DNA from: Collybia mongolica
Lineage: Eukaryota; Basidiomycota; Agaricomycetes; Agaricales; Clitocybaceae
DNA length: 64,000 nucleotides
Assembly (NCBI GenBank): GCA_013420905.1
Contig: JAAXNY010000005.1
Coordinates: 310,001 to 374,000, forward strand
Reading direction: 5' to 3'
Positions 24,195-46,138 of this stretch are shown in pieces; position 1 is the first letter of the stretch, and every line of letters begins with the position of its first letter. The position numbers and the translations under genes are program-made. The notes under the pieces are model-generated. The model saw only the letters and a program-made list of their open reading frames with translations. It ran no database searches and was not told the DNA's origin.

Positions 24195-24485
24195 ATTGTG
24201 GCTTGTAATGACCATGACGATCTCAACTTCAGCTCTGTGGCACACAGGTTTGCTGGAAAGCTACTTGTTCTCTGGCGATTTGTGGGCGAGTGTTGACATG
24301 AGAGTTGCAGCTTCAGAACACGAGGCATAGTTGCAGTGCGACTAGTAATCAATTCCAACCTTGCCAAAAAAACACGAGAACGCAATTACCGATCAATGTG
24401 TTGTATTTTCTTCCCACGATATCAACCATTGTTACAAAAGGAGATGGTTTCTGCCCAGGACGTTTGCACCTAGATAGTATTAGTA
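24195..24485. other. Upstream flank of the kinase gene and edge of a transposon
   Basis: Carries the 5' side of the kinase gene and ends at the inferred left terminus of the Tnp2 element (TA followed by CTGTCCTGATACGACC). Confidence 0.4.
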
Positions 24486-25092: not shown

Positions 25093-25132
25093 CTTGAAGT
25101 CCAGTCAGAAGTCCAGTATTTGGAATCAATTA
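25093..25132 (+). repeat. Left inverted repeat of the Tnp2 element, inner block
   Basis: About 40 bp matching the reverse complement of 45512-45551 with few mismatches, including CAGTCAGAAGTCC followed by TATTTGGAATCAATTA. Confidence 0.7.
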
Positions 25133-25360: not shown

Positions 25361-28300
25361 ATGTCCTCAACGTCTCGCCCTCGTCCTAAGCGTGCACCAC
25401 GCAATCCATACTCCCAGACATCACTGGACCGTTCTCTAACTGCACTTCTAGATCAACGCCCCACCCCAGTAATAGGAAATAAACGGACTCGATCACTGAA
25501 CGATGCAGAGGAGCGCCCAAGGCAAAGGACGCGGGTGGATGTGATAAATCCCCAGGTGTGTAATGCCATACAAATCTTCCTCGACAGTGCCTCACACAAT
25601 TCTAGACAAATCCAGTAACTGTTCCCGGCTCAGTTGAGAGTGATCTGAATAGAGGAGATTCACCACAAATTGATCAAGAAAACCCTCCTCAAGTGCATGT
25701 TGAACAGCCCGAAATTCCTTCCCAGCCTCCTGCTACCTTCGAGCGCGAACCCGGCCTTGATTCTACAATCAACGAAATCCAGCGTACTGCAAAATTCATC
25801 GAATGTTTATGTGCAGCTACTCTTGATAATAGTTGTATGTCTAAAGAGGCTGTCACACGATTGCGCAATCCACAACCCGAACCCTTTCTGGACACTGAGG
25901 ACAAACACTTTCAGAAGGCCCTCGAATCCTTTTTGGCAGTGACAAATGCCTCTGAGGAGACATACAATCGAAACCGGCGTGCTATGATGAGATGTTACCC
26001 AGACGACCCATTCCTTTCGTTCAAACAAATGAAGAGCCGTGTTGAGCAACTCAGTGGGATCTCTCCGATCTGGGAGGATATGTGTATCGACTCCTGTGTG
26101 GGCTTCACGGGACACTTTGCGATGCTTAATAGCTGCCCTGTCTGTGGAAAAGCACGGTATCGACCTGGAGGGAAACAATCCTACCGACAATTCCCAACGA
26201 TTCCCATTGGCCCGATAATCCAGGCGCTTTATAGCAGCCCCACAATGGCTCAGAACATGCACTATCGAAAATGTACCACACAAGCAATTAGAGACTTGGC
26301 GCGCGAAAACGGAGGAGTGATCCTCGAGTATCAGGACACCTGTTCTGGACTCGACTACCTCCAATGCGTAAACTCGAATGAGATATCCTCAGACGATGTG
26401 ATGTTTCAATTATCACTCGACGGCGCTCAGCTCTATCGTGATAAGCAATCTGACTGCTGGATGTGGGTCTACATTTTCCACAACCTTTCGCCTGATCTTC
26501 GTTACAAAAAAAGATTTGTGTTCCCTGGAGGGTTTGTCGGTGGTCCTCAAAAGCCTGTGATCCAGGATTCCTTCCTATATCCGACATACCACCATATTGC
26601 AGTGCTTCAGAAAGAAGGATTGCGCATTTGGGATGCCTCAACGCGATGCTATATTGAAAAAGCACGTCCGTTTTTCGCTTTTGCAACTGCCGATGGCCCT
26701 GCGATGGCGGATGTATCGGGAATGGTGGGCCACAGCGGGAAATTTGGCTGCCGAGTCTACTGTGGACTTCCTGGACGTCGCCGTACAAACGATGGACATT
26801 ACTACCCAGCAATGTTGAAACCGGTCAATTACAGTGTGCGTGGGTGCACACATGAAGACGTGACATTTGCGCAGCTCAAGATATATCGTCAAGACACTGT
26901 TGCTCGATACAACGTGAATCTACAGCTTCTTGTCTCCTCTGCTAACCGAAACCAGTATGAGAAGAACCGACTCAAAACTGGATTAACGAAACAAACTCTT
27001 CTTTCAGGCCTGACACATACTCTCGGTGTCCCTAAAATGTTTCCAATGGACATTATGCACCTCGTAAGCCTCAATGACCCCGATCTACTTCTCGGACTCT
27101 GGCGTGGTACGGTTAAGGTTTACGCTCCTGACACGCGGGATAACTGGGACTGGTTGGTACTTGTAGGTAAAGTTTGGGATGCCCATGGACGAACTGTCGA
27201 GCTTTTGACACCATATATTCCATCTTCATTCGGACATGCACCACAAAACCCCGCTACAAAAGGAAATACAGGATACAAAGCTTGGGAGTACCAGCTTTAT
27301 TTTTATGGGCTGGGTCCTGCTCTACTTCGACACATTCTTCCCGAGAAATTCTGGATCAATTACTGCCAGATGACGGCTGGGGTACGACTTCTACAACAGT
27401 GGAGCATCCCAACTACTGACGTTGTCGTATCAACTCACCATATACACAAATTTGTTGGGGGGTTTGAAGAGATGTACTACCAACGACGCGAAGATCGCAT
27501 TCATTTCATCCGCCAGAGCATTCATCTTCTCCCCCATATCCCTGCTGAAACAGTCCACAGAGGGCCTCTTGCTTGCTATGCACAGTGGACACTCGAAACT
27601 GCAATAGGAAACCTTGGAGAGGAAATTCGTCAGGACCGTGATCCTTATTCGAACATTGCACAACGAGGTATTCTACGAGCGCAACTCAATTCCATTACAG
27701 CCATGCTTCCCGACATTCTTCTATCTGACGAATCACTTCCACGCGGTGCAAAAGACCTTGGTGACAAATATGTTTTGTTACGTGCATGCGAGGATACCCC
27801 CAAGCCCGTTACAACTGCAGAAGCAGTTGCAATTATGGATTACTGGGAGACACAAGGGTGGCCAAATCAAGATCAATGGCCACGCGCTGTTGCACGCTGG
27901 GCTCGACTGCGACTTCCCAACGGACAAACTGCTCGGTCAACTTGGTATGAGGAGTGCGCCACAAAACCTCTTCGCAAAACTTCTTGTGTGAAGGTACGTC
28001 TCCACCATTGCACAAGAACACCTGTACTTCAGCTAATATCCTCATCTAGTTTGGACTAAATCAACAACGAACTCTTCTCGCAGATATCAAATACTTTTTT
28101 AGGATCCGATTTGGCGATATCTCCCACACACTTGCCGTTATATCAGTTTTCTCTTCTAGGGACGAGGAGCTTTTCCAGAAATCTCATGGGACAGTATATG
28201 TATGCAGACACCAAGGTGACGCAGCACTGAAGGTCATCAATGTCAAATCAATTGAGTCTGTTGTATCCATGTGTCCCGACTACCAGGTTACATCAGAAGG

Positions 28301-28904: not shown

Positions 28905-29934
28905 TGTTGGTTGTCGACAGTAGAGTTCAGGAGGCTAGGAGCACTGGCAGCAATGACTGTAAATATTATGACGTCCTTTTACACCACAACCACCACCATC
29001 GTATACCCAATATTACGCACATTCTCGAAGTCAATTCTTATTGTATCAATCCAACTCTTGTTCTTTTCCTGATTTCACAGTTTCCTCAACCCTTCTTCAA
29101 GTTTTTCTTTTTTAATCCAGAGGCCGCATATATGTCACCCGAAGCAGCATCACCGTCAGTAACTACACTTTCTTCACACCACGCATCTTCTTCTTCCTCT
29201 GCCATACAATCCTTCCATCATCCAAGCCTCTCAAGTCCATATGAGTCCTTCTATGCTGGACACACTCACGATTCAAGTATCTCATCGGCGCGCGTGAGTT
29301 TTTAATTTGTCTCATTTGTTCGATATTTTGGAGTGGTGTGTTCTTACATACAGGATCTACAACTTTCATTCATGCGAGAAGAGATAGATGGACTGCGAAT
29401 GAAGAATCATGTGCTGGAAACTGAGGTTATTGTTTGGAAGACACGCTTTGAGTCAACGCAGTAAGTACTTACAATCCCAAGCTCAATGCTTCGCCGCCTC
29501 ACTTTCTCTAGGGAGGCCATCAAGATGTTCCAAGATGGCGCAGGTTCTGTAATGCTCCCGAACAATAACTCCAATAGCCTACCTGCTATCAAAACAATTC
29601 CACCACCTCTCAGTCAACTTTTGTTCATGAAGGTCAAGTTTTGGACTGCACGCGATTATGATCTGGAATGCAAAAAACTAGCTGGGGAGACTAACGGACT
29701 TGCAACACGTATGAAGAAGCGTGGACGACCCTCAAGAGCCGATTCTGATGAACTGGACGATGACGACAAACATCAATACCTCGAAGACTCCTCAGGAAGA
29801 CCCATATCTCGTGAGCTCCTGACACAAGTAGGACACAAGGCACGTCGCCTTTGGCAGGCCCTCAAGAAACAGGAATGTGCACCGACTACATGGGGGAAGG
29901 CGAGCGAATTTGCATATTCATACTACGCTGGGGA

Positions 29935-29941
29935 GATGCTC
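29935..29941 (+). repeat. Target-site duplication of the KDZ element, left copy
   Basis: GATGCTC directly precedes the element; the same seven bases follow it at 43979-43985. With the neighbouring base the match is 7 of 8 (A versus G), fitting the 8-bp duplication reported for KDZ/Zisupton elements. Confidence 0.85.
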
Positions 29942-30225
29942 CACATATGTAAGCTACAATGTAACGTACCATACGGTCCAGCGGGCATATACAATGTAGT
30001 GTATGGTACGGTCCGCGGACGCTACATTGTCCGCTACAATAAAAATATGTAACTACATGTAATCGTACCATGCGGTTCTAGCGGACCACGCACGGCCCCA
30101 ACGGATAGATATGTATTTCCGCGTGGCCGTACGGCATTCATATTCGGCATGGACTACATGTAGTCCTCGGCCATGCGGCAATGATAGTGGGCCACACACG
30201 GCCCCATCCGTGTGGCCGTACACCA
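29942..30225 (+). repeat. KDZ left terminal inverted repeat
   Basis: Matches the reverse complement of 43695-43978 along about 284 bp with roughly ten differences, several in the outer 12 bases. Contains GTAAGCTACAATGTAACG near the tip, then palindromic pieces (GGTCCGCGGAC) and GGCCACAC/GTGTGGCC motifs. A weaker further copy of the subterminal unit continues to about 30360. Confidence 0.9.
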
Positions 30226-30422
30226 AGTTGTACCATACGGTTCCAGCAGACTACGCACGGCCCCAACGGATAGACATGTTTTCCCGTGCGGCCATCCAGC
30301 AATCACGTTCGGCACGGACTACATATAGTCCTGAGCCATATGGCAATAGTGTAGCATCAATGGCCAACGGCTAGATTTGTATTCCAATACTGAGAGAGCA
30401 GCAACAGTTACATACATATATA

Positions 30423-32582
30423 CTACAAATATTCCCCATCAGATCCAGAACCTGTATAGTCCAGCCAGGTGTCGGGAACATCTCTAAAAGACTCCGCATT
30501 GTATGGACCTGGATGTACAAGTGGTTCATCATCTGAAGATATCATGGCCACTGCATCGATGGCCGACATTGCAGCGGCTGAAGCGGAACCACCTTCCCCG
30601 TCCGAAGCTGAGCCACTATGACTTCCCTCATCTGATGATATCATGGCCACTGCATCCAGGACCGAAATTGCAGTGGCCAAAGTAGAGCTATGATGATTTC
30701 CCTCATCCGACGATATCATGGCCACCGCATCCATAGCCGAAATTGGAGTGGCCGAAGCAGCACCACTTTCCGCATCCGAGATCATAGCCAATGCAGCAAG
30801 AGCTGACAATGGATTGGCTGCACCCCCATGACTTCCCTCGTCAGATGAGATCATAGCCACAGCATCCCGGGCTGAAGCGGAGCCATGATGACTTCCCTCA
30901 TCCGATGATATCATGGCCACTGCATCCACGGCCGAAGTTGGAGTGGCCGACGCGGCATCACCAACCCAATCCGACATTGTGGCTGCTGCAGCTATGGTGG
31001 GTACACGGGCTGGGGCTTGCGTGATACGTTGGGGGGGGGCTGATTCATCATCTGAAGATGCCTGATCTACTGGCCGGGCTTTAATAAACACACGGTGGTG
31101 CGGGGCCGAAGGAGTAGGCAAAATTGTAGGCATGGGAGATGCCAGCGCTGGTGCCAGTGAGGAAGCAATCTGATCGGCCGCCGGAATGTCAGTGGAAGAA
31201 ATGAAAGATATATTTGCTTGGGGGGATAAGGGACCTGCCTGACTATCTGTGGACATATGGGTATCTTTGTTTAGTGCTAATGGGGTAGGATGGGGTGCGG
31301 GGGACGGTGCAGTTGAACCAACGGCCAGCATGGCCGAGCTCGGCATGCCAGGGAGATCCAGACCAGGAGTGTGAGTAGGGAGTTTTCCCGATGGATACCT
31401 GCCACTGTGTCCTGATTTTCCAAACCTTAAAGGCCAAAAAGAAAAGTGAGATGGTATTTGAAGGGGGGACAGCTCAGGAGGATCCTGGATATCCTTGCTG
31501 AGTGGGCTGAAGTGTACATCACTAGGGAAGGTTTCATCGGCATCAGAATAACTGCCACTTTCCGCGCTATCGGCCAGGCTTGCATCATACCCAGAATGTG
31601 GCTGTGCAAAATCACGGTTATCTGAGCGCACAAGCTGGCGGACATCATCCATAGATAGAGTGATACCAGCGGACCATTTGAGGAGTGGTGCTGACTCTAG
31701 CCGCTGTTGTTCTGCACGGGCTTCATCCTCTACAGTGTGGCCGAGGGTGGCTCGCTGCCGCATTGGCAGCGGATTGTCCCTGAACACGGATTCAGTCTCT
31801 TTCAACACGGCAGCTTCAAATAATTCATTAAAGCCAGAAGCGCGCCGGATAGTTTGTCTCATTTGGCTGTACTGAGAGATTATGTGAGCATCAACCCGAC
31901 GCTGCAAACCTTGGAGGGCCATTGGGAAATCAAGCCGAGCCGATTGGCCGATCGGCCATGTGTTTGCTGATACTGGCATATCAACGGCAGATGGTATTGC
32001 TGCTTGGGCCACTTCAGAACGATACTTCAAATCGAACCTCAGCGCTTTTCCAATAGTCTTGCTGTTGATATAGTGGGAAGGGTTTGCCAGTTTTGCACGG
32101 CCGACCCACCAGCTCAGTTGATATTTGGCAACAACTGCAGTAGGATCGTTGTAGGTGGTGCTAGCATCAAGTAACAACTTGAATGGCTCTGAGTAGTCAA
32201 GCATTTGCTGATCGGATGTGGTGAGTGACCGAGCGGCAGCAAGGGATCTGGTTATGATTGGGATCTGTATGTTGCGGCCAGTGGCAGTGGCCGATCCGAT
32301 GCATGCCAAAGCAAAATCCTGAAAATTTGTTGGAATGTACACAAAAACATGCCAAATTAGGGGACATACCAACTCATTAAAGAGGTTAATCTGTAGTGCT
32401 TCCTGTGCCCTGCTGGATGCTTGGGCAATGGCAGATAGTGCTGCTCGGAAGCGTGATTCACAATAGAAGATCACCCTTTGTAGACTATCCAGATCTTCAA
32501 TTAAAGTATCTGCTCCATTGATAATGAGGGGGTCAAACAGAGTGAGGTAAGCTTTGGGCATCTTAAGACAGTTTGTAGGCAC
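30423..32582 (-). CDS. KDZ-element accessory protein with VAMISSDE repeats
   Basis: A frame of 719 codons. Inside it a canonical intron can be drawn near 32368-32319 (donor GTATGT, acceptor TTTTCAG), giving a protein of about 700 aa. The first third is helical and Ala-rich with no recognised domain (FALACIGSATATGRN, YQLSWWVGRAKLANPSHYIN). The middle is Pro/Ser-rich. The C-terminus holds six imperfect copies of DAVAMISSDEG-type units ending in VAMISSDDEP, a hydrophobic core followed by Ser and acids, which resembles SUMO-interacting motifs. It lies just downstream of the transposase on the same strand (65 bp between). Function unknown. Confidence 0.75.
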   Translation of the reverse strand: MPTNCLKMPKAYLTLFDPLIINGADTLIEDLDSLQRVIFYCESRFRAALSAIAQASSRAQEALQINLFNELVCPLIWHVFVYIPTNFQDFALACIGSATATGRNIQIPIITRSLAAARSLTTSDQQMLDYSEPFKLLLDASTTYNDPTAVVAKYQLSWWVGRAKLANPSHYINSKTIGKALRFDLKYRSEVAQAAIPSAVDMPVSANTWPIGQSARLDFPMALQGLQRRVDAHIISQYSQMRQTIRRASGFNELFEAAVLKETESVFRDNPLPMRQRATLGHTVEDEARAEQQRLESAPLLKWSAGITLSMDDVRQLVRSDNRDFAQPHSGYDASLADSAESGSYSDADETFPSDVHFSPLSKDIQDPPELSPLQIPSHFSFWPLRFGKSGHSGRYPSGKLPTHTPGLDLPGMPSSAMLAVGSTAPSPAPHPTPLALNKDTHMSTDSQAGPLSPQANISFISSTDIPAADQIASSLAPALASPMPTILPTPSAPHHRVFIKARPVDQASSDDESAPPQRITQAPARVPTIAAAATMSDWVGDAASATPTSAVDAVAMISSDEGSHHGSASARDAVAMISSDEGSHGGAANPLSALAALAMISDAESGAASATPISAMDAVAMISSDEGNHHSSTLATAISVLDAVAMISSDEGSHSGSASDGEGGSASAAAMSAIDAVAMISSDDEPLVHPGPYNAESFRDVPDTWLDYTGSGSDGEYL

Positions 32583-32647
32583 AATGATAAGAAAAGGATT
32601 TTATTTTATCAATATTGATCAGTATGGTCAGCTGTTACATAAGCCGG

Positions 32648-35600
32648 TCACGCAATCCGCTCAAAGTTCGGATTCACGGCCTCAAACTGCCATTGAGCGG
32701 CCTCGGCAATTGTAACCCAAGTGGCCGATTTCCGTGCAGCGTATGCCTGAGCGCCAGCTGAGTTCCTGGTATCTATTCGTCTTTCCTTCCAGATGTCTGC
32801 TTGTCGACGGTAGTAACGGACTGTCCATTCCATCTCATAGCCAACTAATATTGCTTCCTCATTCCAGCGATGTTTATGTGCTCGGGCGCGAAGCCAGTGC
32901 ACACGGTTAACTAGATTATTATTAATTAGCACTGTGCGGCTTGGTTTACAAGCATACTTACATTCAAGAAGTGATGCTGCATCCATATCATTGACATTAT
33001 GATATTGCCAGATCCATGACAGCTTCACCTTGGTTGATCCTGGTATATTTGGGTCCAAAATAGCAGTACTGCTCTTTACATCCTCCCTTTGCAATAATTG
33101 ATATTTTTTCAGGGTGTCAGCATCGGCGCCGAGCCGGATCATGGCCACACGGCATCGGCCATATGCACGGCAATGCAGTGCAATCTGATCATTTAATTTG
33201 GATATCTGGTTCCGTGAACGGGTTGTAACTGCCTTCCGTGGAGCATTGCGGATGACGTGTGAATACTGGAAGGATTTGTCTGCAATCACAGCACGAAGGG
33301 CAGATAGATGCCGATCGGCCATCTCTTCCCGTTGCCGGAGTTCCATTACACAGTACGGATGGGTGGATGGCAGGCATGTCGAGGGCATAGACAGTACCCT
33401 ATCTTCGGGCGGAATCAAAAGTGGCTCCTCCAGGCCAATCCCTGCACTGGCCAGTGGATTGTTGTCTGTGGAATATGAACTAATGCCATCAATATTTTCA
33501 AAGTGTCCGAGCATATTGCTGTCCTCAAATCTGCGTAGCTCGTGAAAGCCTATGCGGATTTCCTCTTTCACACTGTCCAAACTGTCCATCAATGCAACCA
33601 AGAGTTGCCGAAGCCGTTCCACTTCTTGCCGATTGTCCTCCCGTGGGTTTTTCCGGAGGCGGAGAACCCGATCTTGTAAGTCCAGCCTAATAGGTTATTG
33701 AGTATTTTAATTGCAAGCCATAGGTTTACAACACACTGTTGCTCCTCAATGCTAAGCGCTAACTGTATCCACCTTTCACCTTCACTTGTGCCAGTGTGCA
33801 ATCCGACATTGGCCGAATCCGCTTCCGGATCCGAACTGACTTTCCGTGTTGCAAGGACATCCATCATGGCTGGGTTATTGCAATGCTGGTCCTCTGCCAT
33901 CTTTATTTCCTGTTCCCACACCTGAGTGTTCTCTATTGGGATGGCATCTGTCATGTTCATGAAATATTGATTAGCATGCTTTGCCATGGTCTGGGCCTCT
34001 TCAAATTGTTTGCACAATGAGGACACTGAAAATATTTAGCAACAAGATTGGCCTAGTGGAGTATGTACACACCCATGTTCAAGCCTTTCTTGTGATTTGA
34101 ATCTGTGACATGATCATCCATCATTTCAGCCCAATGTGCCAGCGTTGCCGTTCGCATTGCCGGTGATACCGAATTCAGCCCTGCCCACAGAGATTCCAGA
34201 ATTTCCCCTGCAACCATTCCAGCACCTGCTATGAATGAGGTAGCATACCGAAAAAAACACTGTTCCTTGTGCCCATGAACATGAAATAGACCAATTGCAG
34301 GATCTACTTGCAATCCGGCCGGTAGCAAGTGGCCGATCCGCCAGTGTAAATAAACCCAATATTGGCAGACAATATCATATATAAATGTCACACCTTGATC
34401 TGGATCAATCCCAAAAGCCTCCAGGGCTTTGAGAAATGACCAATCAATGTTTTTTTGCTGTTCACCTTGGTAAAGGTTAGCAATACTGTTTGGAACAAAA
34501 CATCCATGACGGGCACATGCAATAGCCACAATTCCTGTGATATCGCATGCCTTAGATGCAAGGAGAGCCTGTTCTACTGCCCGGAACTTGTTTTCACATG
34601 GTGCTTTCTGAGCATATGCAGTTTTTTCAATCATTCTTATCTTCAGCAAAGGGGCTTACCGTTTTGCGTTCCCTAGCAGAGAGCAAAAATTGCTCATAAT
34701 CAGCTCTTTTCCCCATCATTCCACCACCCTCTGATAGCCAGACATCCTTCACAATGCCCTTCTGCCGCACATGGTCAGCCTTGAAGTTTCCATCAGCCGT
34801 AAGCGATGGCCGATATACCCATCTGCAACCCCACAGATGGTTATGCAATGAGAACCAGACACTGGATTGTATCTTACCTGTTCTCATCTGTTTTCCAATC
34901 ATCACGCAGGTTGATTCCAGGTTGGGGGCAGGTGGGACAAAATATGGCCATTTCACCCGGTGCCGGATTCTCCGGATTGGCCTTTCCATGGCCGAATCCG
35001 GCCCACTTCAACTTCTTAATCCATCGCCAAATACGAGAAAGCCTACGCAGTTCATGGTATATATTTGGTACCATTGCTGGAGCCATGGGGTTTGTGTAAC
35101 GCCTGAGCAGCTGAAAATATTGATATGCTGAAGCTTTAAGCTCTAGACTAGAGAAACGAAAATCGTCAAGGACAGCCAGTGTAAACACTGTCCGGATTGT
35201 TTCAAAGCTTGTTGGCATCAGACCGGAAAACACAAGGTCTGATGGAAGGCAATCCGATCCCTGACATGGACAGGAAACAAGTGCCAGGTGATGTATGCCA
35301 TTTGTATGAACCACGCGGACATAAGGATTGACCAGAGCATCTTGGCGAGGTGGCCGTCTGGCTGCATTTTTGGATGCCGGATTGACCGATGGCAGGTCCT
35401 CGGCCACATCTGGCACGGCAGGTACACGGAAGCCCAATTCATCTTCCACTATGTGTTCTTCATCATCCTCTTCGAGCATAGTGTCTCTATCTGCCTCATT
35501 ATCATGATCTTCTCTTTGCCATGATGGTAAATCCATGCAATCCGAGACCCTGTGATACTGAGTTGCCGATGCCGATGCCGATGCCGATGCCGATGCCGAT

Positions 35601-36387
35601 GCCGATGCCGATGCCGATGCCAATTCCGATTCCGATGCCGATGCCGATGCTGATGCCGATCTTGAATTTCCAGCTGGTGCCTCAGATGCCTTTTGCTCCT
35701 CAGCAATATCAGTACTTTCTTCTAACATGTTTAGAGTGTGCATCTGCTTCTTTAAGGCCTCACATATTGGTGCTCCATTTTGATGTTGAACCAACATGTA
35801 GACACCCGCCTCCCAGAGTGCCGCATCCCGGAAATACTCCCCAGTCCAATACTGAATGCGATGCAACTGATTGTCCTGATGGTAATGTCGGAAACACCCA
35901 CGGCACATCATCCGGCCCCTATGACAATCTCGGCAACGCCAGCGAGCCTCCCGTTCGGCACATACATTGCATTTGCCTTCTGGCAAAGATTCACGTGCTA
36001 GGAGAGCCTGTAATATACCTTCCCAATGTTTCGCATGTTCTTGCAAGTAATATGATTGGTCCTGCTATGCATTTAGTATGTTTCAGACTCTTTTCATAAT
36101 GCACTTACCTTCCCCTGTGATGCCACCGGCTGGCTATTATCCAGATCAATTGGGTCATTGCCAGTATCAATCAATGTCTCAGTTACACTTTCAACCCATG
36201 GTTGACCTGATACCCCTTGTCCACCATGTATTGCTGGACATAGTGGTACTTCCACTTTTTTCTCCACAATGCCTCGTTGTGTTTTCACTTGTACACGCTC
36301 TATGGTAACAGAATCAAATGCAAGATCATCATCTTCATGCAGGACATTTTTCTTGATGCGTCTCTTCTTTGCAGGTGGATGGGACAT
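32648..36387 (-). CDS. KDZ transposase with CxC2-like cysteine cluster
   Basis: Seven exons join in frame: 36387-36109, 36061-34878, 34822-34660, 34607-34073, 34025-33737, 33686-32962, 32910-32648 (3438 nt, 1145 aa). It begins with a basic MSHPPAKKRRIKK, then a cysteine cluster of the type associated with KDZ transposases (CNVC-x7-WRCRDC-x6-CRGC-x-RHYH, about 123-150). A Ser-Ala repeat follows, then an acidic spacer and the typical HLALVSCPC and FTLAVLDDFR-like block. The catalytic region includes GIVAIACARHGCFVP, FIYDIVCQYW, HVHGHKEQCFFRYA and GEILESLWAGLNSVSP. The C-terminus ends with the conserved WLRARAHKHRWNEE and EMEWTVRYY. All introns are canonical and no stop interrupts, so the enzyme looks functional. 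Its start faces the divergent gene at 36676. Confidence 0.93.
35563..35660 (+). repeat. (GCCGAT)n hexanucleotide tract inside the KDZ transposase
   Basis: About 14 units of GCCGAT with a few ATTCCG/CTGATG variants. On the minus strand it encodes an alternating Ser-Ala run in the linker after the cysteine cluster. Length is a multiple of three, so frame is kept. Confidence 0.9.
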
Positions 36388-36675
36388 TGTGTTCTGCTAG
36401 TAATTGAGGTGGGGATAGGTGTGCAATGCACATATGTTTTATCAAACCCATTTTATCATTACTACCTCAAGCTAGAAATAGCCAATAGGGCCAATCAATC
36501 AATCAGGCCGGTCATGAGGGGCAATGATGACACTTAATCTCATCATCATCACCACATGGTTTGTTATCTGATTGCAGATTTTCCGATCATGTGGATTACA
36601 CCCAGCATATTTATTAAGCATGCAATCCACCCTGCCGACTTAAATTGGAACCCTTAATTCTTCCTCAGGCACAAC
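36388..36675. promoter_or_regulatory. Divergent promoter region in the KDZ element
   Basis: Separates the starts of the transposase (-) and the 799-aa accessory gene (+). It is the only place from which both could be transcribed. Pyrimidine-rich tracts are seen, with no certain TATA box. Confidence 0.4.
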
Positions 36676-39431
36676 ATGGCAACTTCTCCACGGAAAGCCC
36701 GCAAAGATTGTATCTACACTCCTGATGAACGCAAAGTGCTTGATGGATTTAAGGAACAATATTTCTTGCAAATGGACAGAGCTGGCAGAGGTAATGTACT
36801 AAGGTCACAAATCTTGCCAGCCATGTTCAATTTCTGGGAAATGCGTGGCGAGCAAAGTAGTAATGAGGAGGAAAGGTTGGGACGGGCAAGGGTGAATAAA
36901 CATATTGCACATGTCACACCAGGACTGATTGTCAATGTAGAACCTTGCAAATTGGATATCCAATAATTGGCGGACAAAAGCTAACCATGCATTACCAAAA
37001 CCCACAATCCATGTCAAACGGTTAGATATGGTTTGGAGGCTCCATCCACAAGAGGTTTGCAAGGAGGTCAAGGAAATACTTGGACTGGAAGGTGAACCAA
37101 CTACTGAACAACTTTTTGAGAAACGAAACAAGGCAGCAAAAGCAGTGTATGACAAAATGGATGATATGGCCCGTAATGTGATTTTGCAGAAAGTTGAAGA
37201 GACTAAGCAGCAGGGCCATGATCCAACAAAACAAAATGAGTGAGTCCATGCCAACTCTGGCCAATCCGACCCAATCCGTGTGGCCGATTGGCAAACCGAT
37301 CCTATCCGCGGTGGCCGCCATTGGCAATCCGATCCAATCCGCGGTGGCCGCCATTGGCAATCCGGTCCAATCCGCGGTGGCCGCAATTGGCAATCCGATC
37401 CAATCCGTGGTGGCCGATCGGCACATCTTGTGGGCAATCCAATCCAATGCAATGTGGTTGATTGGCATGACATTATGCTCATCTGTTTGCTAGGCTGGCT
37501 GCTAAACAGGGGGATAAACGGGTCCAGCAATGGGCCATGGAACGATACCTGGAAATGGGGATGTTGACTCTTACATTCATGGTCTACCACACCACAGATG
37601 GTAGGTTAGTGGTAGATGCGTAAGTATTTTCCACATTATACCAGTTGCTTCAAACTGACTAGGTACTACAAGGAATGACCAGATGGCTACAAACATGGGT
37701 GTACCATCTCCAACGTTTCTTGATACAGAAAAGGATCTTGTCTTGCAGTTCAAAAGAAAATTATTGGACTATGTAAAGTCACTTCGTACTCGGGAAAGTG
37801 GTGGTGATGGGGTGGGCAAGCCATCCATCCCACCAGAGTTGGATATCAAAGTGCCAAACACCTTCCCAGAGTTGTCACCAATATCCAAATCCACATCACT
37901 CAAAAAACTTCAACTCACTGACCTGCTACGGCGTTACTGGGGATACCACTACAGTGAGTACTTGAAGCAGTTTTTTCAGTTTGGAGAAGTTAGAGATCTC
38001 ATGTTGATAATAGAGCTTGCAACCAACAACCGTACTACTCATGTCCCCTATCGCCAAGTTATATTGAATCCAGAGTTGTACATTCCCAGCAAGTACTTGC
38101 CAGACCACATAAAAATCCAAGACCCACAGAACATGCGAAAGGGGGAGATATTGGATGTTTTACAGCATATCCATGAGCGCCAAGTCCTGTATGGTGCTGC
38201 GGCAGCATTCCGGTTTTCCCATGTGGTATATGGAGAGGACCGATGTGTGGCCGAGTATACCACCCTATATAATGATGGAGTCCCCAGTGTTGCCACAGGA
38301 AAGGGCAAGGGTAGGCATGTAAATCCCAGGAAGCCCAGGCCGAAGGATGTGGCCACAATGGCAGCCATCCAGTTCCCGGCCACAAAAACATTGGCCGTCC
38401 AACCCCCAGCAACCCAAAGTTTGGCCATAGGAGCCTCAGCTGTGGAAACACCAGCGGCAGAAGGTTTCTATTGGCCTTGTAGCACCCAAGAGGTAATGGG
38501 ATTGCAAGGCGCTGGTTACAACATGCTGCCTGTCAACGGCCCAAATGATGGAGAACCGCTTTATTTAGTTTCCAGCCAGATGACCCAATATCTTGGCACC
38601 ATTGCAGATACACACTCTCAGCATGCCGTGCCCGACAACACTACGACAGGCATGACGGCAAATTCAGCACAGGTCACTATTCCAATTGACCCTGAGTTGC
38701 TTGAGCAACCTCCGGCCCATCGGCCACACCTGCCGTTGCCTAACACACAGTCACCACCAGCCATTCAGCTTGATGAGCAACCTCCGGCCCATCGGCCACA
38801 CCTGGTGCACCTGCCATTGCCTGACACACAGTCACCACTGGCCAGTCAGCTAGATGAGCAACCTCCGACCCCTCGGCCACACCTGCCGTTGCCTAACACA
38901 CAGTCACCACCGGCCAGTCAGCTAGATGAGCAACCTCCGACCCCTCGGCCACACCTGCCGTTGCCTAACACACAGTCACCACCGGCCAGTCAGCTAGATG
39001 AGCAACCTCCAACCCCTCGGCCACACCTGCCGTTGCCTAACACACAGTCACCACCGGCCATTCAGCTTGATGAGCAACCTCCGGCCCATCGGCCACACCT
39101 GGTGCACCTGCCGTTGCCTGACACACAGTCACCACCGGCCATTCGGCTTGATGAGCAACCTCCGGCCCATCGGCCACACCTGCCGTTGCCTGACACACAG
39201 TCACCACCGGCCATTCAGCTTGATGAGCAACCTCCGACCCCTCAGCCACACCTGGTGCACCTGCCGTTGCCTGACACACAGTCACCACCGGCCAATAGAC
39301 CTATGCCAAGGAAGAAAGGAGTCTCAAGAAAGATGGTGAATGCTGATGCACTGGCTGCTGAGGAAGCAAAGAAATATGGAACTTCTGCCAAGCGGACCAG
39401 ACAGAAGAAACTCCGGGCAGATTATGATTAG
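36676..39431 (+). CDS. KDZ-element accessory protein with Pro-rich repeats
   Basis: Exons 36676-36891, 36941-37239, 37494-37619 and 37673-39431 join in frame (2400 nt, 799 aa). The N-terminal half resembles proteins often found in agaricomycete genomes, I believe near transposons: YTPDERKVLDGFKEQY, NWISNNWR, DMVWRLHPQEVCKEV, LTLTFMVYHTTDG, and ELYIPSKYLPDHIKIQDP followed by a VLQHIHERQ block. From about residue 500 come at least eight imperfect copies of a unit such as LDEQPPAHRPHLPLPNTQ. The tail is basic (SAKRTRQKKLR), suggesting a nuclear protein. The second intron (37240-37493) contains a minisatellite. Function unknown. Confidence 0.8.
37258..37440 (+). repeat. Minisatellite in an intron of the 799-aa gene
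   Basis: About five copies of a unit near 36 bp built from GGCAATCCGATCCAATCC followed by GCGGTGGCCGCCAT-like sequence. Copies in the middle are almost identical. TGGCCG and ATCCG are also frequent in the element ends. Confidence 0.88.
38698..39295 (+). repeat. Coding tandem repeats, 72 or 81 bp
   Basis: Units share CAACCTCCGRCCCMTCGGC, CACACCTGCCGTTGCCT and ACACACAGTCACCACCGGCC. Some units carry a nine-base GTGCACCTG insertion. Frame is kept throughout. Confidence 0.88.
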
Positions 39432-39515
39432 AAATATATTTACATGTATGGTATATTGATGAGCACTGATATTTACATGTACAAGATATGAACAAATATG
39501 TCTACAAGAAATCAA

Positions 39516-42255
39516 CTACTTTCTAATTTTTTTGGTGGAGGGCACTTCCGAAGAGCTGGGCTCCAGAGGCCGCTTACCAGGCTGAGGTGATAACCGTATT
39601 GGAGTGCCCTCATCTCCTGGCTGGGGGCTAATACTTCTGGCATGTAGGCGGGGAGAACGCCTGTGAGGCATTGGTGGGGGGTTGAGTGATGGTGGAACAA
39701 GCAATTGGGGACCGGTAGGCACTTCCTGTGATGTAGCTGGGGTTGCAGGAATGAGCTGCACAATTGGATTGGACGATGCAGCTGAGGATTCAAGTGTAGA
39801 TGCTGCATCCATTCCGTGTTCTGCCATTGAGTTGGGCTGTGCCACTGCCGAAGTTTGTATTGTGGCCGGAGGTGTTGTGGCTGAAGGAGGTGCTGTGGTG
39901 GCCGCAGCCGAAGGAGTTGTGGCCGAAGCGGGTGGGGTGGTGGCCGAAGGAGGTGGGGTGGTGGCCGTGGGCATCCTGGTGGCCAAAGCCACCTCCGTTT
40001 CCGGTGCCATCTGAGTGGCCTGTGCAGCTTCAGTGGCCGGTTCACTATCCACATCCATGTCAGTAGCCGCTCCCGACACCATTACTGGTGGTGCTTCCGT
40101 GGCCAATATGGAGGCCTGCCTCGAGGGGCTGTCCCCCGCATCACTACTCCGCAGAAGAGGGGGGGGTTGGTTGTGAGTGTCAACTTCCCTTACCCTAGGG
40201 GTTTGGACGCCCTCAACTGATTGCTCCCTCTCATACTTTGCCTGAGCTAGCCGCGCCTTCATGCGTTGCATTGTTTTGCGCTCCAACCATGCCTCCCCAT
40301 CGTCAAACTCACCCCCATACTGTAGCCAAGTCTTTACCCATTCCTGTGTTTCCTGTGCTGGCCGTACATCCGTTACAATAATTGGCCGTCGGAATTCGTC
40401 GTAGCGGTTTCGCGGTTCCCGTGGCAAACCTTCCAGTGGTAATCCAAGATACTCCGCGATATCACGATAGACGACCGTTAAGGCATCAACTTGATTCTCC
40501 AGAGTTGAAATTTGTGCCATAGCATGACCAAGGAGGGAGGGGACATCTGCCAAGCCAGGTGCTCCCTCTGTACCTGCAAATAATGCCCCTATGTGAGATG
40601 AGGCAGCAACTAAGCGTCTGCTGGCCTCCGCGAGCGACATGTCGGCATTTTCACGAGGAGGGACACGGCCGCGGCGGGTTTGACCGGCAGCAAAGTGTTT
40701 GTCTTGTGGCCCTGCAATGTGCATTTCAGTAAGCATTGTAGTGTGTGGAAAGGGAACAACTTACGTTTTTCCGCTCGGCGTTCCGTCCTCCATTGCTCTG
40801 AGGGGCTATCGTCCGTGTCTTCATCCGGCCGGGGTTTGTCCACACGTCCTTGGGCCGCCGCTTTCCCTGTTCGTTTCCGTTTCTTGGCCTGTTCCACCAC
40901 TTCCTCTTGTACATCGGAGGGATTATCTGAATCTGGTTCAGACTCTTCAAGAACCTTCTTCTTTTTCCCCCCTCTTGGGCCGCTATGGAGGCATTTCATC
41001 TTTGCCTCATAGCATGCAACGCACGCTCCACCCATGGCTTGTTTCTCACATGGAAGATTTCTTCGTATGCATTTTAGACACTTCTCGGCATGGTAGCGGC
41101 CTGTCCGCTGAGCTCGGCGCCGTGGCCTATTGTCAATCCGTCGCTTCTTCTGTGTCGGTTCTGTCTCCCCCTCGGTTTCTCTGGCAGTGCCCTGGACATC
41201 CGGTATATCCTCTTCCTCATCCTCTGAGAGCATAGCGAGCTCCTGAAATGACCGGAATGGGGCCTCATCAACCTCCATGTTGGTATTTTGCCGGTGACGG
41301 GAGGGGCCAGGACTCGCATTTCGTGGTTGCAAACGACGAGGAGCACGGGGCTGATTGGTTCTGGCACGACCCTCATCCATGGCTCCATCAGCTCTGAATT
41401 GCTGCCTAGCACCAGCAGATTGCTTCCCAGGCGCAATGTAAATGGATCCGGAGTCGTCGGATGGCCTTTCGCCAGCCTCGGATTGCGTTGCCTCAACTGC
41501 GGATTGCTTTTGACGCCTGCCGGATTGCCTCACGCCGCCTTCCAAGCCCCTTCCATCACGATCGGATTGCTTCCCTCGCCTACTGGATTGCCTTGCTCCT
41601 GCTCCTAACGCCCTTCCGTCACCCATGGATATCCTCCCGCTCTCGTCGGATTGATTCCCCCTAATACCAGAATGTCGGCCACCACTGGCCGAGCGACGGC
41701 CAGGAAGTGCGGATTGCTTTTGGTCACGGCCGGGGGGCACGGATTGCCTAGCATTGGTGTCGGATTGCTTTTGGTCACGGCCGGGGGGCACGGATTGCCT
41801 AGCATTGGTGTCGGATTGGTTTCGGCCACGGCTGGGGGGCACGGATTGCCTGGTGTCGGCCTCGGATTGGTTTCGGCCATGCAATCCGATAGCCGTGGGC
41901 GCCCGGCTGGCTGTTCCGAGGCCTTGTACTGGACCCTCTGTGTCTGAAATGATGAACATGTTTGATTTATATATATGTTCATTTGCCACTTACCCTCATG
42001 ATTCCGCTCCCACTCCTTTAGGATTGCTGGTAATCGTGATGCCAGGACAGGAATGGGTTGTCGCTTTACAGCCTCTTTGACAAACTCAAAAATGAACAGG
42101 TTTGTGTTGCCGACGGATCCTGTCAGCTCGGCCTTGATGCTTTTTACCTCACGCCAGATCCGGTCATATTCATTTTCAAGTGTCCCGGATTTGATTGTGG
42201 ATCGGATCTTCTTGTCAAGCAAGGAGATTGCAGAAGTTTTGGTGATGTGTTGCAT
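39516..42255 (-). CDS. KDZ-element accessory protein with cysteine-cluster domain
   Basis: Exons 42255-41994, 41943-40765 and 40711-39516 join in frame (2637 nt, 878 aa). After a helical N-terminus the protein has repeated Gln-Ser-Arg units (such as RDQKQSDTNARQSVPPG), then an acidic patch and CLKCIRRNLPC-x8-CVACYEAKMKCLHSG. That Cys spacing resembles a fungal Zn2Cys6 cluster. A basic GKKKK stretch follows. The last exon has a helical region (AQISTLENQVDALTVVYRDIAEYLG) that could be a coiled coil, then a Thr/Pro/Ala-rich tail. A DNA-binding, transposase-helper or regulator role is inferred. Its start faces the plus-strand gene at 42445. Confidence 0.78.
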
Positions 42256-42444
42256 ACTGAGTTTGATGGATGAGAGGCGGCAGGGATTACAACGGCAGCT
42301 TGTGGCGGTTGAAGATAAACGGCAAGCATCAAAAGTTTTTAAAAAACACAGACATTACGTAAGTATCACGTGACCCGTTCGGCCTCTCTACTTGCAGCCG
42401 TCTGATCTCCATCATCCGATCGACTCCCTTCCTTTGCATCCAGA
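42256..42444. promoter_or_regulatory. Second divergent promoter region in the KDZ element
   Basis: Short 189-bp gap between the starts of the 878-aa (-) and 161-aa (+) genes, so both are probably driven from here. Confidence 0.4.
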
Positions 42445-43039
42445 ATGAATACACCCTCTGGATATACCACCATAGCCAATGCAGATGGGAATCCCATCAT
42501 TATACCAACTTATATGATTGATGGTAAATCAGTCATCATCCCAAAGTACCTGCTGCCGGCCACAAAGCATGCCCTAGCAGCAAAGAAAGTCCAACAAGGC
42601 CTGGATCTTGCATCCAGCAGAGGTGTGAGTCACCTTCTAACCTAACCTGAACTGTAACACATTATTTACACCACTAACACAGCCATTCAATCCATCTGGA
42701 GTGTATGGCAGCATGGTGGCCGAGGGGACTGTGATGGTACCCATAGATCCAGTAAGCCTTCTCAATATATCTACAATTTCATTCTGTTTCATGCAAAATC
42801 AGAGCCTTACAGACAGAGAAATGGTCTCTCTACATGCTGAGGCTTTGTCCATGCAACAGCAATTGGGTATCAGCTACAAAGATGCTGCCCATCGCCTCTA
42901 CCTGGCTGAAGTAGAGAAGTTAAAGGCACAGGACATTACCTACAAGGCACTCAATGCTATCCGGGATGACATTTCCCAAGCCATTGCATACCGGAACTCA
43001 GTGGATAGCAAAAATGATCAAGAGGCCTCCCATAGCTGA
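42445..43039 (+). CDS. Small KDZ-element accessory protein
   Basis: Three exons, 42445-42624, 42683-42751 and 42803-43039, join in frame (486 nt, 161 aa). The start MNTPSGYTTIANADGNPII is followed by a hydrophobic/basic part (YLLPATKHALAAKKVQQG) and a C-terminal helical region (SMQQQLGISYKDAAHRLYL). No domain is recognised. Both introns are 50-60 nt with GT-AG ends, which supports a real gene. Confidence 0.7.
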
Positions 43040-43242
43040 ACCTGTTGTATATGCACAGTAATTGTAACTACTAAATTGCACCTATGATTTATTATATTAT
43101 ATACTGTGGTCAAATTTTCACCTCAATTGTATGCTCCAAGGCCAACAGTCATGTGCCGAGGGTCTGTTCCATTGTGGCCGAACTTCGGCACCAATTTCAG
43201 ACTGCAAAGCTAATCATCACAAGCCGAGTCTGTGCAAAACAT

Positions 43243-43800
43243 GATTGACGTACGGCCACTCGGATAGGCTGTAGGTGGCCCACTATCATTGCCGCATGGT
43301 CGAGGACTCATATGTAGTCTGTGCCGAATATGATTGCCGTACGGCCACACGGATTCGGCCATGTGTGGCCCGCTAGAATTGCTGCATGGCCGAGGACTCA
43401 TATGCAGTCTGTGCCGAATATGATTGCCATACGGCCACACAGATGGGGCCGTGTGTGGCCCACTATCATTGCCGCATGGTCGAGGACTCATATGTAGTCT
43501 GTGCCGAATATGATTGCCGTACGGCCACACAGATTCGGCCATGTGTGGCCCGCTAGAATTGCTGCATGGCCGAGGACTCATATGCAGTCTGTGCCAAATA
43601 TGATTGCCATACGGCCACACAGATGGGGCCGTGTGTGGCCCACTATCATTGCCGCATGGCCGAGGACTCATATGTAGTCTGTGCCGAATATGATTGCTGT
43701 ATGGCCACACGGATGGGGCCGTGTGTGGCCCACTATCATTGCCGCATGGCCGAGGACTACATGTAGTCCATGCCGAATATGAATACCGTACGGCCACGCG
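43243..43800 (+). repeat. 90-bp subterminal tandem repeats of the KDZ element
   Basis: GAGGACTCATATG or its variant recurs at 43302, 43392, 43482, 43572, 43662 and 43752, exactly every 90 bp. Two alternating variants are visible (GCCGCATGG with GTGGCCCACTATC, and GCTGCATGG with GTGGCCCGCTAG). The left end has only one or two such units. A 199-codon minus-strand frame across the array is a by-product of the 90-bp period. Confidence 0.92.
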
Positions 43801-43978
43801 GAAATACATATCTATCCGTTGGGGCCGTGCGTGGTCCGCCAGAACCGCATGGTACGATTACATGTAGTTACATATTTCTATTGTAGCGGACAATGTAGCG
43901 TCCGCGGACCGTACCATACACTACATTGTATACGCCCGCTGGACCGTATGGTACGTTACATTGTAGCTTACCTACCTG
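43695..43978 (-). repeat. KDZ right terminal inverted repeat
   Basis: Reverse complement of 29942-30225. The outermost bases read CAGGTAGGTAAGC on this strand against CACATATGTAAGC at the left, so 9-10 of 13 tip bases agree and the rest of the repeat is nearly identical. Confidence 0.9.
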
Positions 43979-43985
43979 GATGCTC
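43979..43985 (+). repeat. Target-site duplication of the KDZ element, right copy
   Basis: GATGCTC, identical to 29935-29941; the interrupted reading frame continues right after it with AACGACACTGAT. Confidence 0.85.
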
Positions 43986-45511
43986 AACGACACTGATTTC
44001 GTTTTTTTTCAATACTGCAAGAGTAACTGGAAACTGGACCGTTGGACAACTAAAACATATGCATCCTGGGCCCGAAACCATATGCGAACGCCATCAAGAC
44101 CCTCAAAGAAGCCTAAACATGAGATCCTCAATGACTCAACACTCCTGAAGATGGACGATGACTCCCCTAGTGCTCCTGGCGAACACATGTTGCCTTTCCC
44201 TAACACTAGTTTCGAGACGACCTCAATACCAGCAGAGGTACGAGTTGTGTATGGTAACGTTTATTGTCTTATCTTTTGTTCAGGTGCAATTAGCAACAGT
44301 GCTGCCGGAGGAGAGGTTCGAAATCCTTGATCCACTGTGAGTGACAATTACATCGTCACTTGTTCCCTCACAATCCTTTACAGGGATAACGACGACCTTT
44401 ATGCCCCAATCAAAACCACCAACTTGGCAACTGCATCGATGGCCGCTACCACTGAAACAGAACCCCCAACCTCGACTGCCACGAACCAAGCCTTTGAAAG
44501 TTTCTCCACTCAAACAGCCACCACACAAACCAACGATCTGTCATTCGAAACACGTTCAACTACAACTCCCACCACCGAAAGTCCCCATGACGGATCCATA
44601 GCCCTGAACGAGGCTCCTGCGCAGGCTGCATCCCCAACACCCCCAATGACCAGAGCCCCCACAACTGGAACCCACGAGCAACCCACAACCCCGAACAACG
44701 TTCCTGCACCCCCAACATGTCCAACAACCGCCGATGCACAAATTGTCCCCGCCGCCCCACCTGTAACGTTGCAATCTTTAAATCCTGAACCAACTGTATC
44801 CGAACCTGCAAAAGCAAAAGTTATGAAAAAAGCGAAAGCAACGCTGGCCGTCATTGGGTCAGGATACACAGACAAGTAAGTCTTAATGCTATTATTTATC
44901 AGTGACTCATCCACTCTAGAAACTGGGCAATGCGAGCTTGGCTTACGACACATCCTGGAGGCCTCAAATCCGACTTCGAAGCACACTGGAAGAATATTCC
45001 CATTGGGGAAAAGGTGGTGCGTATGCTGACCGACGTAATCTTTCCCTCACTGATTTCACGTGCACATACAATTGTAGGTTTTTGCCCAAGAAGCGAAAAT
45101 CGCGGTACGTCGTCAGATGGTCCACCTATTGCGGCATTAGCTGATCTTGTCGCCCATAGAAGAAGGCCGCGAAGTAGATCCGGGCCACAAATCCGCTACC
45201 ACTTACAGCAACAATTGGGACACTACAAGTTGCATTTCGAGGGCAAGTGTAGGGCAGCTGTATGCAGGGGCACAGAATAGCAGTATATGTGTGGATACCG
45301 CCATATTGTACTGAAAATTTACTGTAATTGTTCGTGACTAAACGAAATGTATCACAATTGAAAAGATTCGTTTCGCAAATGTTATCGTCGATTATGAGCA
45401 GTTCGTCTGACCTCAACATGTAGTAATCGAAGATAATCGTGTTCTGTCTGCTGGGATATGCTATTGAGTAGGGTGTCAATTAAAATATGTTATTGCGGAA
45501 GGTAATCGATC

Positions 45512-45617
45512 ATAATTGATTCCAAATACCGGACTTCTGACTGGGCTTGAAGAGTCAACTAGTCATTGAAATCTGTCACATGTCACAATGCATGAAGAGT
45601 AGGTCGTATCAGTACAG
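45512..45617 (-). repeat. Right inverted repeat of the Tnp2 element
   Basis: Both blocks of the left repeat are present, only about 45 bp apart. The tip reads CTGTACTGATACGACC on this strand. Confidence 0.68.
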
Positions 45618-46138
45618 TATGTACGAGTTGAACGGCACAGCAACGAACTTTGTTCCTCACCCCAGAGCTCGGATGTCGATGATATTATGTCGATGACTGG
45701 CTTTACGGATTCGCCCTAGTACTACAGCTGGTCGGAAGTGTTGATATATTCTCACATATAATTGGGGCGTTCCAACATCTGCCATTCTGTCAGGATATGC
45801 CAATTATCTCAGCGCTTGCGGAAGATTTCAGACGTCAGACATCAGCAAACCCTGATTTTTCTCACAATCAGCTGACAGACCCTGTAGTGCCCATAGTCAT
45901 CCATAGATGTTGTACTGAACTCTGCAGTGCTTTGCAGTTATGTGTAGAATCCACCATGTCTGTCCTGATATCCATAGTGGCTCATACCTTCTATACAGTT
46001 CTGTATATTTACCACCTCATCTGCCCAGGGGTATGCTTGATTTGATTGGCTGTGCAGAATTGGGCAGAACTTATTCAAATGACTTCATAATTCAACATGA
46101 TTATATGTATGCAAAATACTACTAGGATTGGTCATTTT
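45618..46138. other. Flank and possible left end of a Plavaka-type element
   Basis: No gene. From about 45871 the sequence has motifs (CCCATAG, TCCATAG, CTGCCCAG, CTGTGCAG) shared in inverted order with 56.8-57.06 kb; see the composite element. Confidence 0.45.

Follow-up and report, generated by a model that had tools for sequence, protein, structure and literature searches.

The window analysed here is a whole stretch of 64,000 nucleotides of Collybia mongolica (G000:C5:310001-374000, from contig JAAXNY010000005.1 of a 46-Mb, 26-contig assembly); element positions are given in window coordinates and other loci by contig and position. Its KDZ, Plavaka, and DUF6535 families are in keeping with an Agaricomycete. 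It contains three DNA transposons nested one in another, almost certainly through ordinary staggered-cut integration: a TA-flanked remnant of DDE_1 type (24486-45617), inside it a Tnp2-like element (25100-45545) carrying a transposase and an accessory gene, and, inside the third exon of that accessory gene, a KDZ transposon of 14,037 bp (29942-43978).

The KDZ element is bordered by the heptamer GATGCTC at 29935-29941 and 43979-43985, and since the bases outside the two heptamers differ (A or G before them, C or A after them), this target-site duplication (TSD) is exactly 7 bp long. Its terminal inverted repeats (TIRs), at 29942-30226 (starting CACATATGTAAGC) and 43694-43978 (finishing CTTACCTACCTG), are 285 bp long and match at 276 of 285 positions. 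They start and end exactly at 29942 and 43978; both the flanking GATGCTC and the base-level limits proposed in a sequence-only reading of this locus are borne out. Searching with the left arm yielded a list of 101 matches, and the 40 strongest among them were taken as ends (the best 40 of 79 candidates scored); the KDZ copy counts are thus lower bounds. Among these 40 well-matched ends, all 22 of the left type start exactly CACATATG, and 17 of the 18 of the right type start exactly CAGGTAGG, the remaining one showing a single change. The two ends are therefore reproducibly asymmetric in their first 8 bases, being near-identical further in, and the possibility that other copies end elsewhere, which the earlier reading had named as a threat to its limits, did not materialise in the 39 ends that start with one of these two sequences. 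Thirty ends form 15 inward-facing pairs (the 10 lacking a partner within 20 kb, one of them near a contig end, were excluded from the TSD count), and every pair is flanked by an exact 7-bp direct repeat and none longer, a repeat found in 0 of 210 mispaired flanks. An 8-bp duplication is ruled out by the differing outer bases in the window and by a longest match of 7 in all 15 pairs. The paired copies are 3.2 to 18.1 kb long, seven of the 15 falling at 13.9-14.4 kb. Derivatives of 3.2-3.5 kb with KDZ ends and 7-bp TSDs lie at C8:309100, C9:2905836, and C1:5024818, one of them in the initial part of an alcohol dehydrogenase gene. An internal 4-kb probe gave 12 near end-to-end matches, seven of which, the window copy included, were printed as 100% identical (scores 7183-7216). 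Such similarity reads as a recent burst of the family, which, given several near-identical copies, is probably young and may still be mobile.

Removing the KDZ element together with one GATGCTC joins YYAGEML to NDTDFVFFQY in frame. The resulting accessory gene is predicted to span 29132-45140 on the plus strand, with its ATG at 29132 and 551 codons (1653 nt plus stop). The eight parts counted in the sequence-only reading correspond to seven exons, the third of which is split: exons 1 (29132-29293) and 2 (29354-29460), the left part of exon 3, stopping at the insertion (29512-29941), its right part (43986-44237), and exons 4-7 (44284-44336, 44384-44875, 44920-45016, and 45078-45140, with the stop). 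The empty allele of this site would read GGGGAGATGCTCAACGAC. The unbroken frame claimed in that reading also withstood a control in which different numbers of right-flank bases were removed: in the window, removing 7 leaves a longest frame of 273 amino acids, against 150-213 for 0, 5, 6, 8, or 9. The same offset is the best at five of six sites with long frames (the window site, C5:799330, C1:5070078, C8:309100, and C9:2905836), although at C1:5070078 it leads by only 6 amino acids. Joining the flanks of other KDZ copies gives a copia gag-pol frame at C5:799330 (Retrotran_gag_2, Pol_BBD), DUF6535 genes at C16:254074 and C1:5070078, the start of an alcohol dehydrogenase at C9:2905836 (ADH_N), and at C8:309100 a frame of 338 amino acids with no Pfam match, similar in appearance to a long interspersed nuclear element (LINE). 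Empty sites were sought with 400 joined bases of the copia and LINE-like targets as queries. The whole query is covered to within two bases by 19 of the 28 matches listed for the copia target and by all 40 listed for the LINE-like one (the best 40 of 82 candidates). Compared letter by letter, four copia copies match at 393-395 of 400 bases and four LINE-like copies at 398-399, without gaps and with the junction as predicted; the copia copies have one base inside the heptamer unlike the KDZ site. At two other insertions of the same KDZ family, uninterrupted copies thus have the expected form; this is the direct check proposed in the sequence-only reading, made at other sites than the one in the window.

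The accessory gene has relatives at 13 other loci, identified by protein search, and all 13 align across the junction in one stretch with 22-31% identity, sharing the pattern W...Y...M / F...W K...Y..W. A Tnp2-like transposase lies upstream on the same strand at 12 of these loci; at the exception, C1:6387430, none occurs among the best 55 of 185 candidates. The window gene itself lies between the ends of the Tnp2-like element, so its earlier attribution to a Tnp2 element stands.

Without the KDZ element and one TSD, the Tnp2-like element measures 6,402 bp. Its ends, TCCAGTCAG...CTGACTGGG, are flanked by CTTGAAG at 25093-25099 and 45546-45552, a heptamer that is single in two of three paralogous copies of the target: C6:3159720 and C10:1602160 have CTTGAAG once, followed by the sequence predicted for an empty site. 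We searched for relatives with the terminal 13-mers of two subfamilies and obtained 24 matches, against 1 and 2 with the patterns reversed as controls. Nine inward-facing pairs (five and four by subfamily search) are among them, and within each pair lie both a transposase and an accessory gene; six further matches lack a partner (C8:2525379, C9:1065217, C15:66093, and C16:715641; C1:4363938 and C10:2815502). The nine relatives, C4:1539293 and the elements in C1, C5, C6, C8, C10, C11, and C12, have the termini CCCAGTG..CACTGGG, those of the window copy being TCCAGTC..GACTGGG; six are 5.8-6.6 kb long and the others 7.7, 9.0, and 28.2 kb. An exact 7-bp TSD flanks nine of the ten elements (the window copy plus nine) and 0 of 90 mispaired combinations, and the 7-bp duplication of this host element is well supported within the one genome. 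Two of the TSDs, GATGAGG at C10:2723368 and CCTCATC at C12:414542, are reverse complements of each other, which may reflect a target preference or chance. The inverted repeat at 24484-24510/45593-45619 was considered as the pair of Tnp2-like ends and ruled out: the termini of the relatives are CCCAGTG/CACTGGG, and this outer repeat is part of a different element. An inverted-repeat search found no ends for three more Tnp2-like loci (C12:436k, C16:190k, and C11:1310k), and the right end of a canonical Tnp2 family of the same genome, sought for its TSD length, could not be fixed.

The main open frame of the transposase (25606-28059, plus strand) encodes 817 amino acids without a stop. The name Tnp2 has weak Pfam scores behind it, PF02992 reaching E 1e-5 and 25.3 bits in the window protein and staying under the cut-off of 28.6 in all four Tnp2-like proteins examined (25.3, 18.9, 18.7, and 12.3 bits). 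The alignment with a canonical Tnp2 protein that the genome also encodes (PF02992 at 88.2 bits) nevertheless points clearly to homology (27% over 513 columns, E 9e-41); the adjoining Plavaka transposase gave no alignment with the window protein. Seven residues are invariant in the four aligned transposases (D272, D363, C382, C386, H640, H644, and E664), and by analogy D272, D363, and E664 with H640-H644 would represent the D-D-E with H(3)H of the clade. Among the sequences of solved structures, the Tnp2-like alignment matched, at E 0.7, two de novo proteins. The lineage resembles the CMC (CACTA/Tnp2) clade in its homology to Tnp2 and in having D, D, and E with H(3-4)H before the E (catalytic and motif roles again by analogy). 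It departs from it in three traits: the spacing of C382 and C386 is C(3)C in all four proteins instead of C(2)C; the termini are CCCAGTG..CACTGGG or TCCAGTC..GACTGGG and not the CA..TG of most cases; and the TSD is 7 bp in nine of ten elements, two of the three target copies showing an empty site, where PMC12730594 gives 2-5 bp for the whole CMCT clade.

The outermost layer is short, about 679 bp without its inserts, with the TIR CTGTNCTGATACGACCTACTCTTCA, TA at 24484-24485 and 45618-45619, and other copies at 93-98%. Its flanks show no duplication longer than this TA. The segment 24484-25092 has four other matches in the genome, at 94-96% over its first part, and in three cases the other 129 bases follow at a distance of 3.7-6.9 kb, so that either the window copy has lost internal sequence or the other copies carry inserts. 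All five copies share the left end, and three of four share the right end, the fourth being the broken copy, C10:3215380. A fuller copy encodes DDE_1 above the cut-off, and no transposase was found in the window remnant. DDE_1 elements target TA, and we take this one to be of the pogo/Tc1-mariner type. Absent from the sequence-only reading were this third layer and, for the Tnp2-like element, both its ends and its 7-bp TSD.

Inside the KDZ element, on the minus strand, lie a KDZ transposase domain exon at 34053-34655 (PF18758, E 3.2e-39, 135.3 bits against a cut-off of 26.6) and a CxC2 domain, a cysteine cluster linked to KDZ transposases, at 34874-36064 (PF18803, E 4.3e-15); they place the element in the KDZ superfamily, as had been proposed. 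The frames bearing these two domains are the only ones above cut-off in a Pfam scan of ten of its open frames (42641-43039 left out). Two large frames, at 37659-39431 (plus strand) and 39516-42354 (minus strand), are among those without a match and are putative cargo. To compare changes by codon position, the element was set against eight KDZ loci; six could be aligned usefully, and the other two yielded no alignment. In the KDZ exon, the differences from locus L003 (74% identity) number 28, 16, and 66 at codon positions 1, 2, and 3, and the other five alignments lean likewise; this third-position excess is as expected for a protein under selection. The element also holds minisatellites at 35540-35683, 37287-37416, 38702-39407, 41710-41879, and 43185-43848, with units of 12, 33, 72/81, 51, and 90 bp, and sister copies of the element vary in length; the last minisatellite, of 90-bp tandem repeats, lies beside and within the right arm. 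No TET/JBP domain was matched within the element, the sole match of a genome search lying elsewhere (C5:4428003-4428410).

Within the superfamily, the element appears Kyakuja-like, an assignment made by TSD length and termini. A 7-bp TSD, which PMC12730594 gives for Kyakuja, and CA..TG termini are each present in 15 of 15 paired copies. The absence of TIRs, reported for two TET-carrying Kyakuja families, is not seen here, 276 of 285 terminal positions matching, and perhaps it is no defining trait. Zisupton and Dileera were rejected, their expected TSD being 8 bp (PMC12730594 for Zisupton) and that of the 15 pairs exactly 7. Motifs of KDZ TIRs have been characterised (PMC8290104).

The locus was almost certainly built in three steps. 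A TA-targeting DDE_1-type element, today a short remnant, integrated first; a 6.4-kb Tnp2-like element with its transposase and accessory gene then entered it, duplicating the 7 bp CTTGAAG; and a 14-kb Kyakuja-type KDZ element entered exon 3 of the accessory gene last, duplicating the 7 bp GATGCTC. That the Tnp2-like element came before the KDZ element, as the sequence-only reading held, follows from the nesting of one inside the other and agrees with the age signals: over 4 kb, the KDZ copy and six sisters were printed as 100% identical, whereas the split gene's left part is single-copy at the DNA level. We infer that each element's own transposase performed the cut-and-paste catalysis. The KDZ insertion presumably disabled the accessory protein of the window copy, which may have been a TnpA-like helper involved in DNA binding or regulation. 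The KDZ insertion is an ordinary nested transposition and adds one more member to a known kind; the unusual part of the nest is the 7-bp duplication of its Tnp2-like host.

Several observations weigh against this account. The assembly holds no DNA-level empty copy of the split gene, whose left part was searched and occurs once. Of the uninterrupted copy that the earlier reading had proposed to look for, only the protein-level counterpart was therefore found, at 13 of 13 loci spanning the junction, and the empty site of the window rests on these protein relatives (22-31% identity), on the frame, and on the other KDZ copies. In four of the 13 relatives, the stretch of protein printed around the junction contains a stop. 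At C16:254074 the frames are longer with offsets other than 7, and at nine sites with frames of only 55-105 amino acids offset 7 is the best in one and not in the other eight. On the side of the Tnp2-like element, C4:1539293 is flanked on each side by GATCAAT, four additional bases separating the left heptamer from the end of the element, and the third target copy, C10:3215380, is broken at the Tnp2 site. The KDZ junctions of the window might also stem from misassembly or recombination and not from insertion, since sister KDZ copies near-identical over 4 kb are able to mislead assemblers; yet misjoins are not expected to yield an exact TSD at a unique site, a restored frame, and a distinct TSD at each of the 14 other paired copies, and we give this explanation the slimmest of chances.

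Two further alternatives concern the Tnp2-like host. Its accessory gene could be a gene of the fungus in which the element landed or which it captured, as might be thought of a joined protein with no Pfam family at E<=0.05 and with none of 7,988 scored candidates from a large protein collection at E<=1. The repeated association with a same-strand Tnp2-like transposase upstream (12 of 13 loci), nine times within the same element ends, argues strongly for a gene of the element and makes an origin from the fungus very improbable. Alternatively, another transposase could have acted in trans on the CCCAGTG ends and produced the 7-bp repeats, with the Tnp2-like protein as a passenger: the KDZ duplication in the same genome is likewise 7 bp, and the lengths given for the Tnp2/CACTA clade in PMC12730594 are shorter. 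However, the Tnp2-like ends are wholly unlike the KDZ ends, and in nine of ten tested elements the paired 13-mers enclose a Tnp2-like transposase and an accessory gene (the only genes looked for), so we consider action in trans unlikely, if less so than the other two alternatives. We lean instead, with some reserve, towards an undescribed CACTA/CMC lineage, recognised by CCCAGTG-ended elements, C(3)C, and a conserved accessory gene, that cuts with a stagger of 7 bp, outside the range of 2-5 bp. The literature surveyed, mostly titles and the openings of abstracts and including few subscription papers, makes no mention of a Tnp2/CACTA element with a 7-bp TSD.

The nest fixes to the base, and in one place, the ends and TSD lengths of two groups of fungal transposons that have been little studied. 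If the 7-bp duplications of the Tnp2-like lineage are true, TSD length in the clade related to CACTA and RAG1 is less fixed than the published range would imply; the lineage would then offer a natural pair (2-3 bp versus 7 bp) for studying how transposase geometry sets the stagger. Directly adjoining the nest, on the minus strand, is a Plavaka transposase with a DUF6830 domain (46574-48451), and further along, on the plus strand, an open frame with a DUF6532 domain (56024-56674).

Each layer can be compared with known systems. The outermost shares with DDE_1 elements, which we take as pogo/Tc1-mariner-type, the DDE_1 domain of its fuller relative and the TA beside both ends, but the window copy is a short remnant. 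The KDZ element has in common with the Kyakuja of Agaricomycotina, as PMC12730594 describes them, the KDZ transposase, the 7-bp TSD, and the CA..TG termini. It differs from the two TET-carrying families described there, which lack TIRs, in its 285-bp arms with asymmetric terminal 8 bases and in having no TET/JBP match. The KDZ1-3 elements of Cryptococcus neoformans (PMC12810828) likewise combine a KDZ transposase with long TIRs (139-241 bp, in elements of 9-11 kb), but their TSDs are 8 bp (KDZ1) or 4-8 bp (KDZ2/3) and they have CxC1, compared with 7 bp and CxC2 here. The Tnp2-like element shares a transposase homologous to Tnp2 with the TRC elements of animals (PMC1636069) and the fungal CNIRT6 and CNEST (PMC12810828). 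These have shorter TSDs, of 2 bp in TRC, 3 bp in CNIRT6, and TA in CNEST, against 7 bp here, and the four aligned transposases have C(3)C rather than C(2)C. The termini of TRC start with CCC, one reading CCCAGTCAAC (PMC1636069), and resemble the CCCAGTG ends; and plant elements of the CACTA clade also make a second, helper protein, with which the accessory gene may be compared.

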